Origin: Oscillospiraceae bacterium
Lineage (GTDB): Bacteria; Bacillota; Clostridia; Oscillospirales; Oscillospiraceae
Assembly: GCA_902795045.1 (NCBI GenBank)
Contig: CADBJU010000021.1
Span: 1 to 64,000, forward strand
DNA: 64,000 nt
Direction: 5' to 3'
Positions 35,381 to 38,809 of this stretch are shown here, piece after piece. Made by a program: the position numbers and the translations under genes. The notes beneath the pieces were generated by a model. The model was not told the DNA's origin. It worked only from the letters and a program-made list of their open reading frames with translations, and made no database searches. Within the stretch, counting starts at the first letter, position 1; each line of letters begins with the position of its first letter.

Positions 35381-36856
35381 TCAGGAAGCAAGCGGCTGGA
35401 AGGTCACGTACACCACAACATCCATGGCGGGCATGACGAAGTTCTTCGCCTCGGTGATGTCATAGCTTGCCGACCCGTCGATGAGGCTCCAGACGATCTT
35501 GTCAAGGGTGTAGCCCTGCTCCGCGTTCGGGAAGACAAAAACCGTCGTGGACGGGTAGACATTCATCTGCGTGCCGGAATCGCCCGTCGTGAGGCCGAGG
35601 GCCGCGCTGCCGCCCTGCATGGGCGCAAGGCTCACGCGATACGCCTGCTGCGGGGCATAGCCGCCGCCGACATACTCCCAGGAGTTGTCCGCGCCGGGGA
35701 TGTTGAACACGAGGTCGAAGCCGGAGCCCGAGCTGCCGTCGGAGTCGCCGCCGTCGGAGCCGCTCTTCTTCCACTGGGCGGTGAGGGTGAGATTGGCGCT
35801 TATTTCCACCTCCGGCCCGGGTCGATAGGTTTTCCCGTCGCTGCCCAGCCAATAGTCAAAGGTCTCCCCCTCGGGGGCGGTAAAGCCGCAGCTCTCGACC
35901 TTGTATATGTACTTCCCCTCGTCGTTTTTGGAAACCTTTGTGGCGCTGCCGCCGTTGGCATCATAGGTCACGGTGTAAGTGGGAATTGCCGCAGCGTCGG
36001 GAACCGTGATATTCACGTTGGCGGTCGGCGTACCGGAGACGGTCACAACCGTATCACTTGTTCTGGTAACAGTAATTCCGTTTGTGGTTGTGTAAAGATT
36101 GCTTGTTTCGGGAAATTTATTCCCGCTGTTCGCCGTATAGGTCACGGTGGTCATGGTCTGTCCCGGTGTAACATTTTGCGTCGTTGCGCCGCTCGCGGTC
36201 GCGTTCGTGCCGCCTGTGAGGGTCACAGTGTAACTTGCCGCTCCCACCGTAAATGTATTAGATGTAGAATCAAATGTCACCTTGCTCAAGTCAAGTTTTA
36301 AAGCGGGGCGAACACCGTACGTCTTAGAAACAGGGAGACCAAAGTCGTACACGGTGCTGCGCAAGCCGTCCACGCACGTCGCATAGCCACCCATGCCGCC
36401 GGACGAGCAGAGCCACCAATAGTTTCCATCAGTTCCGGAAAACCGGGTGCATTCTCTGGTATCCTCTGTCATTGCATTTGCCTGATTTTTTGTCAGAAGA
36501 AACATTTTGTTGTCGACTACTGCTGATTTTACACCACTCGAAATACTGCCGTTATAGTAAGTGTTTACGGCTGTTTCCACAGTTGAACCGCTATATGTAT
36601 TATTTGAACCAAAGCTTGACGCAGCAACGCATTCCTTTGCAAGCAGGGTAACTGTTCCTGCATTCGCGGCCGTGGAGTTGTTCTCAATCAGATACCATTG
36701 TTTGCCGTCAAAATTTACTACTGTTGTGGTATTCAGCAGGCTGGCATAAGGATCACCCTCCCACGCCAGTGCCGTCAAACTCATCCCCGGCATCAGCCCG
36801 ATCACCATCACCAGCGTGAGCAACAGGGACAGAAATTTTACTCCTCTGTGTTTCAT
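35381..36856 (-). CDS. Secreted surface protein with DUF6273-like and bacterial-repeat domains
   Basis: A 491-residue exported protein. Signal peptide (MKHRGVKF, hydrophobic LLLTLVMVIGLMPG, cleavage near ALA, residue 31). Residues 40-195 resemble DUF6273 (YWWLCSSGG... GVRPALKLDL), a C-type-lectin-like fold seen in gut Firmicutes; 205-295 is a Thr-rich beta region; 295-370 is a Listeria-Bacteroides-type repeat (YTVTYDANGGSAT... TLTAQW); then a Gly/Ser linker and a C-terminal beta domain. No LPXTG motif. The middle is more AT-rich than its neighbours, suggesting mosaic origin. GGAGG lies 7 bases before the start. Its upstream DNA is an invertible segment. Confidence 0.85.
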   Translation of the reverse strand: MKHRGVKFLSLLLTLVMVIGLMPGMSLTALAWEGDPYASLLNTTTVVNFDGKQWYLIENNSTAANAGTVTLLAKECVAASSFGSNNTYSGSTVETAVNTYYNGSISSGVKSAVVDNKMFLLTKNQANAMTEDTRECTRFSGTDGNYWWLCSSGGMGGYATCVDGLRSTVYDFGLPVSKTYGVRPALKLDLSKVTFDSTSNTFTVGAASYTVTLTGGTNATASGATTQNVTPGQTMTTVTYTANSGNKFPETSNLYTTTNGITVTRTSDTVVTVSGTPTANVNITVPDAAAIPTYTVTYDANGGSATKVSKNDEGKYIYKVESCGFTAPEGETFDYWLGSDGKTYRPGPEVEISANLTLTAQWKKSGSDGGDSDGSSGSGFDLVFNIPGADNSWEYVGGGYAPQQAYRVSLAPMQGGSAALGLTTGDSGTQMNVYPSTTVFVFPNAEQGYTLDKIVWSLIDGSASYDITEAKNFVMPAMDVVVYVTFQPLAS

Positions 36857-36900: not shown

Positions 36901-36926
36901 TACCACATACTGTGCATTATGTGGTA
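36901..36926 (+). repeat. Left inverted repeat of the invertible segment
   Basis: A 26-bp site with arms TACCACATA and TATGTGGTA around the asymmetric 8-bp spacer CTGTGCAT, like a tyrosine-recombinase core site. An exact inverted copy lies at 37279-37304. It is 44 bp upstream of the surface protein start. Confidence 0.9.
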
Positions 36927-36946
36927 AAAGCCGCCCAGCCGAACGC

Positions 36947-37085
36947 CTGTCATTGCGAGACAGTGCGCACACTGTCGTGGCAATCCGCCCGCCGGAGGCC
37001 ATTAACCGCTCAGATACCCTCCCCTGGCCACCGGGAAAGACGGATTGCCACACCAGTGACGTCGGTCACTGGTTCGCAATGACAG
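36947..37085. repeat. CATTGCGAG-type palindromic repeat inside the invertible segment
   Basis: The ends CTGTCATTGCGAG and TTCGCAATGACAG are inverted, and internal pairs such as GGCAATCCG/CGGATTGCC and CCAGTGAC/GTCACTGG add further hairpins. Probably a miniature element inserted in the switch. Confidence 0.65.
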
Positions 37086-37231
37086 CGGGGAGGCTGATCA
37101 CAACCAAATAAACCTGAAATTCCTATCCAAAATAGCAAGACAGGCAGCACCAATAGCCGGAAATGCATTACAAATCGTCTCCGGCTGCTTATGTATGTCC
37201 AAAATCAGGATAATCTTATGTATATTTACGA

Positions 37232-37260
37232 TTGACTTTAGCTGTGAAAGAGGTTAAACT
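37232..37260 (+). promoter_or_regulatory. Switchable sigma-A promoter
   Basis: TTGACT (37232-37237), 17-bp spacer, TAAACT (37255-37260). Transcription would start near 37267 and cross the right inverted repeat, heading into the toxin-antitoxin region as sequenced. Confidence 0.75.
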
Positions 37261-37278
37261 ACAAGCTGTAGTTTTTAA

Positions 37279-37304
37279 TACCACATAATGCACAGTATGT
37301 GGTA
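37279..37304 (-). repeat. Right inverted repeat of the invertible segment
   Basis: Exact reverse complement of the 26-bp site at 36901-36926, with no mismatch. Homology stops sharply outside it. Confidence 0.9.
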
Positions 37305-37346
37305 TTCCTCTATCACCGCAAAAAGCAAAACGCGGGGCGCTTTCTC

Positions 37347-37374
37347 TTGACAAAGCGCGCCCGCGTGGTATAAT
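37347..37374 (+). promoter_or_regulatory. Strong promoter for an antisense RNA
   Basis: TTGACA (37347-37352), 16-bp spacer, TATAAT (37369-37374): both boxes match consensus. It faces the small toxin-like gene, so its RNA would be antisense to that mRNA. Confidence 0.75.
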
Positions 37375-37479
37375 GAAGATACAAAAGGGCGCTGTTGATT
37401 TGACGGTTGGCCCGATACGAGATTCAACTTTCGTTGACCGCACGGGGCTCAGCCGGGCGGTCAACAAGCTTTTAAAAGC

Positions 37480-37566
37480 TTAGTAAGCCTTTGGCGCTAT
37501 GTACAGCATGATCATAACGATCACGATGAGACACAGCACAAAGCGAAGGATTCTCCGCTTATCCAT
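37480..37566 (-). CDS. 28-residue membrane peptide (type I toxin candidate)
   Basis: A small gene. The start has GGGAGG 8 bases upstream. The peptide has a basic N-terminus (MDKRRILR), one hydrophobic helix (FVLCLIVIVMIMLYI) and ends PKAY. This layout is typical of type I toxins such as the Fst and TxpA groups, though I do not recognise a named family. Its own promoter (37664-37692) gives a leader of about 90 nt with hairpins, one partly covering the ribosome site (CTTCC/GGAAG). A strong promoter on the opposite strand makes an antisense RNA. The 16-bp palindrome AAGCTTTTAAAAGCTT overlaps the stop. Confidence 0.6.
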   Translation of the reverse strand: MDKRRILRFVLCLIVIVMIMLYIAPKAY

Positions 37567-37663
37567 AAGCCCCACCTCCCTTCCGGGAAGTGGCCAACCG
37601 CCATAGTTTCAACAGCGCACCTTTCGCCGGATTGCTCCGGTGGCCTCTTGCGAGGTTAATTTC

Positions 37664-37720: not shown

Positions 37721-38557
37721 TATAATATGAGGCGGAGCTGCCCAAGCTGCCGCCTCTCTTCTTTTCCGCTGCGCATCGTATAAATGCGGGTAGTGTCGAT
37801 GCTGCTGTGGCCGAGGATGTCCGCAAGGCGTACAATGTCCTTGAAACGCTCATAATGTGTCCGGGCGAAAAGGTGCCGCAGATTGTGGGGAAAGACCTTC
37901 TTTTTGAGCACCCTTGCCGCTTCTGCCAGCCGTTTCAGCATCTTCCAGACGTTGGAGCGGTCAAGCGCCCGGCCCGTCCGGGTGACAAAGACACAAGCCT
38001 GCGCGGATGCCGCGCTCCCCGCACCAGGCGCGCAGCTTCCTGCACAGCGCGTCGGGGATCAGGATCGTGCGGAGCTTGCCCTTGTTGTGTATGCTTGCTT
38101 CTCCGGCGGCAAGGCTCTCCACGGTGACGGCCTTCAACTCGCTGATGCGCAGGCCGAGGGCACACAGCGTCTGGACGATCAGGGCCAGGCGTCTGTCGCC
38201 CTGCTCTAAGGCGGCGGAAACCAGACTTTCGTATTCCTGCCGTGTAAGCTCCCGGTCTGCCGGTAAAAAGGCCCTGCGCTGCACGCGGACATATTTGAGC
38301 CGCCAGTCTGAGCCGAGAAAGGCGAGATAGCAGTTGACCGCCCCCAGCATGGAATTGACGCTTGCACCGGAATAGCCCATGTCCTCCAACCAGGCGCGAA
38401 AGCCGTTCAAGTGCTCCTTGTCCCTGATCCCCTCCGGCGCATATCGGAGCAGCGCTTCTGCATCATGGGCGTATTTCGCAATCGTAGCGGGGCTGTACTC
38501 CTGCTCCCTGAGATGTTTTATAAAGGCGTCCAGCGACGCGGGGTTTATATTGAGCAT
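37720..38557 (-). pseudogene. Tyrosine recombinase (XerC/D-like), frameshifted
   Basis: Site-specific recombinase of about 278 residues if repaired. The ATG at 38557 has AAAGGAG upstream. The N-terminal SAM-like domain and the first catalytic Arg (LGLRISELKAV) and Lys (HNKGKLRTIL) are in the first frame, which ends in a premature TGA. One extra base near 37990-37995 shifts to the frame holding VFVTRTGRALDRSNVW, PHNLRHLFA (His-x-x-Arg), LGHSSIDTTRIY (His and catalytic Tyr). All six catalytic residues are therefore present, so the break is recent or a sequencing error. It lies beside the invertible segment and is its likely cognate enzyme. Confidence 0.88.
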
Positions 38558-38646
38558 GATAAGGCTCCTTTCAGATAGTGCTGGAAATCTTATCATTCCT
38601 CACTTGCTGTCGGATTATACTTTTGTGAAATGATGCTGAAGTTTTC

Positions 38647-38809
38647 ATACTATTCCCTGATAGAAAGCTGACTTGGCATTTCGAGCAGGAATTGCGCCAG
38701 ACAAGGCGGCTTTCGAAGAGCATAATGGAGATATATGGTCAAGAAAGCCAACACAGTATGGCACAATTCCTGCCGGAAGGACTGTCAGATTCCTATCAGG
38801 GGATAGTAT
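38647..38809. mobile_element. MITE-like element, copy B (163 bp)
   Basis: The same 17-bp terminal inverted repeats as copy A (38647-38663 and 38793-38809). The interior has a long hairpin whose arms are GCAGGAATTG-C-GCC and GGC-A-CAATTCCTGC; copy A lacks the second arm. With the hairpin at 38831 it fills the 378-bp gap between the recombinase start and recN; no gene is seen there. Confidence 0.82.

Follow-up and report, generated by a model that had tools for sequence, protein, structure and literature searches.

The locus examined here raises the question whether a small region in front of a gene for a putative surface protein is an invertible promoter. It lies in a 64,000-nt stretch of DNA from an Oscillospiraceae bacterium (the window; contig CADBJU010000021.1, positions 1–64,000), where two mirror-image repeats at 36901–37304 enclose a promoter-like sequence. 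The initial annotation proposed an invertible promoter captured in the OFF state. We consider it probable (about 0.87) that this region is a phase-variation switch driven by a tyrosine recombinase and OFF in the present assembly, the switch being either in working order or newly broken. This reading is supported by an adjacent recombinase gene, by sites that co-vary with the recombinases, by a one-promoter layout occurring in both orientations, and by an inverted interior between collinear flanks.

A perfect inverted repeat pair encloses one good promoter

The left candidate recombination site (IRL, 36901–36926, plus strand) and the right one (IRR, 37279–37304, minus strand) are complementary at 26 of 26 positions, with matching core orientation as at the boundary of a promoter-type inverton. 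They enclose 352 nt (36927–37278), the putative invertible segment, in an element of 404 bp. The two perfect 26-bp repeats in front of a signal-peptide protein gene are thus as initially described. Allowing up to three mismatches, the site is present twice in the window, and two matches were obtained in none of 100 dinucleotide shuffles. At the same tolerance IRL and IRR form the sole pair in the 2.75-Mb assembly. Each site is nearly palindromic on its own. The 9-8-9 anatomy originally given, TACCACATA-CTGTGCAT-TATGTGGTA, is correct for the letters of the site, but comparison within the family suggests that it is better read as ACCACATAA-6 nt-TTATGTGGT, the arms then having one mismatch. Viral contigs contained no match to the exact site pattern and none to the recombinase patterns.

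The best promoter of the element, TTGACT-17-TAAACT (37232–37260, plus strand), agrees with the consensus at 9 of 12 positions and scores 13.1 bits (p 0.015, 200 shuffles). The best leftward candidate reaches 7.9 bits (p 0.54, 200 shuffles). All promoter calls depend on a generic, hand-entered promoter matrix. A single good promoter is therefore present inside the element and points away from the surface gene, as had been claimed. The predicted leader of about 80 nt after inversion is borne out by arithmetic, which places the end of the −10 box at 36945 and the ATG at 36856. Inserted in the segment is a dispersed palindromic repeat (36936–37096), to which the own genome gives 53 match rows. Two other candidates were rejected. 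A leftward terminator-like site before IRR (37343–37327) has no more stable a fold than shuffled sequence (z 0.37), and the sole Rfam match between 36500 and 39000 at E ≤ 0.1, SpF11 sRNA (29 bits against a gathering threshold of 54, E 0.093), was deemed a chance hit.

The gene in front of IRL (35381–36856, minus strand) encodes a protein of 491 residues with a signal peptide recognized by eye. Its start codon is 44 bp from IRL, and its ATG is preceded by GGAGGAAAG. Residues 294–361 match the Listeria-Bacteroides repeat barely over the cut-off (27.4 bits, with 27 required), and a match to DUF6273 stays under its cut-off. Compared with the counterpart at G037:C1 the protein is a mosaic: the C-terminal part is near-identical, the signal peptide is similar and the middle is hardly alignable. 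The own genome contains two more copies of the C-terminal part at 94–95% identity (G000:C1:124435–124779 and G000:C2:205729–206070), where the site pair is absent at up to three mismatches. The target thus has the appearance of a member of a secreted-protein family in which the C-terminal part is conserved and the middles are exchanged. The counterpart gene at G027:C3 is split into two ORFs.

A tyrosine recombinase gene adjoins the element

Just past IRR lies a gene for a tyrosine recombinase (37723–38596, minus strand), which the initial annotation did not mention; the dispersed repeat inside the element and a promoter outside it (see below) were likewise missing from it. In the present assembly the gene is frameshifted. 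The N-terminal part of 211 residues (37961–38596, minus strand) has its frame broken near the end, and the C-terminal part, which carries the HxxR, H and Tyr catalytic residues, follows in a different frame (37723–38058, minus strand). All four same-genus copies (G027:C3, G037:C1, G027:C42 and G035:C223) encode an intact protein of 291 residues. R150, K174, H237, R240, H263 and Y272, which we take to be the catalytic positions of a tyrosine recombinase, are the same in all 20 aligned family members. With a gene that is adjacent, invariant in these residues across the family and intact in the four relatives, though frameshifted in the window, the element may have a dedicated recombinase. For the intact G027 copy, the best-matching families are NF040815 and TIGR02224 and the best-matching structures PDB entries 4a8e, 5hxy and 1a0p. 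XerA, XerC and XerD are thus its best matches, yet the scores are far under the curated cut-offs (136.7 against 220 bits for XerA, 108.2 against 335.15 for XerC and 97.7 against 329.6 for XerD). The arm-6-arm layout of the sites resembles that of dif.

Since a promoter segment here lies between mirror-image sites and beside the gene of a probable flipping enzyme, it probably switches the surface protein on and off. The recombinase encoded past IRR would bind both inverted sites, recombine them and flip the segment. In the present orientation the single good promoter would fire to the recombinase side, leaving the surface gene devoid of a good promoter (OFF); after inversion about 80 nt would separate it from the start codon downstream (ON). 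We infer the promoter activity, the action of the recombinase on these sites and continued flipping in this organism.

Because the recombinase is frameshifted, the switch may be locked OFF. The locus would then be a former switch, with a recombinase that is a recent pseudogene and a surface gene that is either silent or transcribed from elsewhere. Searching the own genome at E ≤ 1e-30 revealed no second recombinase of the same family (two of its 13 Pfam integrase-family match rows are the fragments themselves and 11 lie elsewhere), and the uniform OFF state of the subgroup described below points in the same direction. However, the repeat pair is still perfect, and both halves of the recombinase look selected. 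For codons 1–195 of the N-terminal fragment, dN/dS is 0.30 against G027:C3, 0.25 against G037:C1 and 0.19 against G027:C42. For the final 85 codons of the recombinase, the numbers of synonymous and nonsynonymous differences are 11 and zero relative to G027:C3, 11 and one relative to G037:C1, and 13 and one relative to G027:C42. As both halves appear to remain under purifying selection, the break would either be of recent date or have been introduced in assembly; in a draft of 56 contigs, a local error is possible. The switch may accordingly be newly locked OFF, unless the frameshift is an artefact. We regard a former switch that is now locked, a reading that overlaps with the preferred one, as possible but rather unlikely.

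Upstream of the recombinase, an MITE-like insertion of about 160 bp (38648–38808) with 26-nt terminal inverted repeats (88%) is missing at the matching place in G027:C3 and G037:C1.

The repeat pair is conserved in close relatives

A search of 99 genomes detected the site in six, the own genome included. Pairs are present in four of these (own, G027 with two, G035 and G037); in G039 the site occurs once, and in G083 once with three mismatches. An exact-match scan returned four stretches in three MAGs, Ruminococcaceae bacterium RUG13650, RUG11160 and RUG14429, where RUG presumably stands for rumen. The initial annotation had named loss of the repeats in relatives as evidence against a switch. 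Instead, the same pair occurs with 0–3 mismatches, together with the recombinase, at four further loci of the genus (G027:C3, G037:C1, G027:C42 and G035:C223), and the asymmetric core is in inverted order in all five subgroup pairs.

Both flanks of the element in the window align with G027:C3 and G037:C1, where the gene neighbourhood is the same. The flanks of G027:C42 and G035:C223 do not align with the window, and other genes stand in front: a 917-residue signal-peptide protein at G035:C223, and at G027:C42 an ORF of 125 residues that by eye resembles a response regulator, with a signal-peptide ORF after it. Within the segment, the right part (about 37137–37278) is conserved in the four other elements, whereas the left part is found only in G027:C3; by alignment the dispersed repeat is common to G027:C3 and absent from the three shorter elements. 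The counterpart promoter is kept in the same orientation in all five elements and faces the recombinase, so that the window's subgroup is OFF in five of five cases and includes no inverted copy of the window's element.

Two single sites, at L022 431–455 and L014 7245–7270, are of note. The one in G129 lies directly after the 3' end of a recombinase gene and before a signal-peptide ORF, with the promoter segment lacking, and that in G039 borders the peptide cassette described in the last section. Both are possibly deletion scars.

Repeat pairs accompany many related recombinases of the order

Matches to the recombinase were found in 27 of 102 same-genus genomes, the own genome included. In 18 of 30 fetched genus loci the recombinase is adjoined by a pair of inverted repeats 16 nt or longer. 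A looser search of the other 12 and of three more G139 loci added a perfect pair in two G139 loci, giving a pair just 3' of the related recombinase in 20 of 33 loci examined; an imperfect pair at G121:C37 (17/20) is not counted. The repeat check covered 33 of the 35 genus recombinase loci, leaving out G027:C47 and G035:C96. The remaining 13 of the 33 have no clear pair, some of them being at contig ends or in gene fragments. Of the genus elements, 19 show a neighbouring gene, and in 11 of these it encodes a signal-peptide protein, as judged by eye. At L075 (G012:C3) and L079 (G139:C70) the gene in front resembles, by eye, another tyrosine recombinase, which suggests chained recombinase-switch cassettes at these two places.

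A profile of 20 recombinases matched at least 117 of 396 genomes of the order at E ≤ 1e-60. Thirty order loci were fetched, these being the best-scoring matches and not a random sample, and 27 of them have about 200 bp or more downstream. A pair lies 3' of the recombinase in 23 of the 27, from 4 bp inside the gene to 145 bp past its end, and four have no clear pair. No pair was found upstream of the recombinase in any of the 30, one of which (L109) is hardly testable with 103 bp upstream. A phase-variation cassette consisting of a recombinase, its own site pair and one promoter therefore appears to be common in this bacterial order.

The sites also vary together with the enzymes. Recombinase identity and site-arm identity are correlated (Mantel test, r 0.48, n = 42), with none of 2000 permutations as high, and the correlation holds when the window's subgroup is removed (r 0.54, n = 38). 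The own recombinase was left out of this test because it is split. The many site–recombinase pairs, some in opposite orientation, offer material for studying, in uncultured bacteria, which sites each enzyme recognizes and how the switches are biased.

The repeats might alternatively be the ends of a small transposable element inserted before the gene, which would fit the single sites in G039 and G129 and the occurrence of the unit at non-orthologous places in G027 and G035. Across the family, however, the pairs hold their place at the recombinase 3' end with spans of about 240–400 bp while the interior diverges, and the interior is inverted between homologous loci, as described in the next section. 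We consider this explanation very unlikely. The whole cassette may nevertheless move, which is compatible with the preferred reading as a switch.

As a side note, the right site is followed by a T-run in some members. In 43 elements the mean number of T in the adjoining 9 nt is 3.3 on the right and 2.0 on the left (Wilcoxon p 0.0097), and five or more T occur in 12 cases on the right and four on the left. The effect comes mainly from one related group, and we therefore do not propose IRR plus T-run as a general terminator. In the ACCRCA-type elements L067, L062, L064, L076, L077 and L078, which have 6–8 T in the 9 nt outward of the right site, that site may serve both for recombination and as an intrinsic terminator.

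Both promoter orientations occur among relatives

Comparison of strains for both orientations had been suggested as a check. Among the relatives compared here, both orientations are seen in the wider family, but the window's own subgroup contributed the OFF state only. Orientation was called where the better promoter led by at least 2 bits and reached at least 11 bits. In 43 elements (20 from the genus and 23 from the order) the promoter points away from the target in 27 and toward it in eight, the other eight being undecided, one of them through an exact tie. Measured from the −10 box to the outer edge of the closer repeat, the distance is similar in the two states: 41–78 nt in 26 of the 27 elements pointing away (133 nt in the other one) and 37–89 nt in those pointing toward the target. 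The excess of OFF may be a real bias, or may stem from common descent, five of the entries being closely related, or from the choice of loci.

The clearest case is provided by G138:C2 and G139:C47. Both flanks are collinear at the DNA level, with target genes 79% identical over 1322 positions and recombinase genes 85% identical over 858; the two targets share 52% identity over 934 positions, the two recombinases 83%. The stretch between the repeats aligns only when inverted (score 152 inverted and 21 direct, the best of 1000 shuffles being 31). We call these loci homologous, not orthologous, because G139 holds several similar loci. Higher inverted than direct scores were also obtained for G138–G139d (69 and 18), G045–G049 (69 and 36) and G133–G049 (59 and 29); in G045–G049 the direct score of 36 too exceeded all 1000 shuffles. 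The inverted signal is weak in G045–G034 and G133–G034. The shuffle test was applied to 16 chosen element pairs, and all 153 pairs of 18 elements were scored without shuffles. This comparative evidence suggests that inversion has occurred in other branches of the family; it applies to those branches rather than to the window's own.

These data also bear on the possibility that the palindromes serve a DNA-binding regulator as operators on either side of a regulated promoter. The near-palindromic character of each site would suit such a role, whereas the inverted order of the asymmetric core in the five subgroup pairs, the location of pairs 3' and not 5' of recombinase genes, and a homologous locus pair with inverted interior and collinear flanks all argue for recombination sites. 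We regard operators as extremely improbable.

If the region is an invertible promoter, the conserved position of such elements behind the 3' end of the recombinase would also allow feedback. In the OFF state the promoter would run toward the recombinase, and antisense into it where gaps are short, which would lower recombinase levels and stabilize OFF; in the ON state this effect would be missing. The outcome would be an asymmetric, hysteretic and OFF-biased switch, in line with the 27 to 8 ratio, and in some members the right site with its T-run could modulate the effect by terminating transcription. We put this forward as speculation and think it unlikely to be correct.

Relation to known invertible promoters

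Elements of the present family have their recombinase gene alongside, whereas the recV gene of Clostridioides difficile lies apart from the switches that RecV controls. The two systems have in common a recombinase of the tyrosine family and, here by prediction, an invertible segment before a surface gene. RecV inverts segments upstream of surface and motility operons (flg, cwpV and others), populations are mixed ON and OFF, loss of recV yields locked strains, and RecV is required for several switches (PMC7446863).

PMC11892184 describes an 'inverton group 139' with tyrosine recombinases of 'invertase group 35', in which 32 of 33 invertons come from the class Clostridia and a tyrosine-type recombinase lies near nearly all members. 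Two examples, from Intestinimonas butyriciproducens and Clostridium sp. D5, have segments of 255 and 257 bp and shifting ratios of forward to reverse reads (PMC11892184). The present element resembles these invertons in span and recombinase type, the two features compared; it differs in coming from a draft genome related to the RUG MAGs and in its frameshifted recombinase. It very likely belongs to the Clostridia inverton and recombinase kind of PMC11892184. No paper on this particular element was found in the one literature collection searched. The kind is known from gut Clostridia; new here are a further example in the OFF state, the order-wide cassette layout and the pairing of sites with enzymes.

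A separate small cassette lies between IRR and the recombinase gene

The promoter outside IRR mentioned above, TTGACA-16-TATAAT (37347–37374, plus strand), is of the sigma-A type, matches the consensus at 12 of 12 positions and starts a small-RNA-like unit of a separate repeated cassette (37340–37600). This perfect promoter is combined with a strong hairpin (37433–37465; fold of 37425–37500, z −3.1) and an opposing ORF for a hydrophobic peptide of 28 residues, MDKRRILRFVLCLIVIVMIMLYIAPKAY (37482–37568, minus strand). By eye the peptide is type I toxin-like and the cassette resembles a type I toxin–antitoxin unit. The peptide ORF is not needed for the layout of the switch, because at G035:C223 the recombinase abuts IRR. 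Matches to the cassette, some of them short, occur in at least 14 of 102 genus genomes, at least 10 of which have two or more rows, and close pairs of the cassette are present in G037 and G119.
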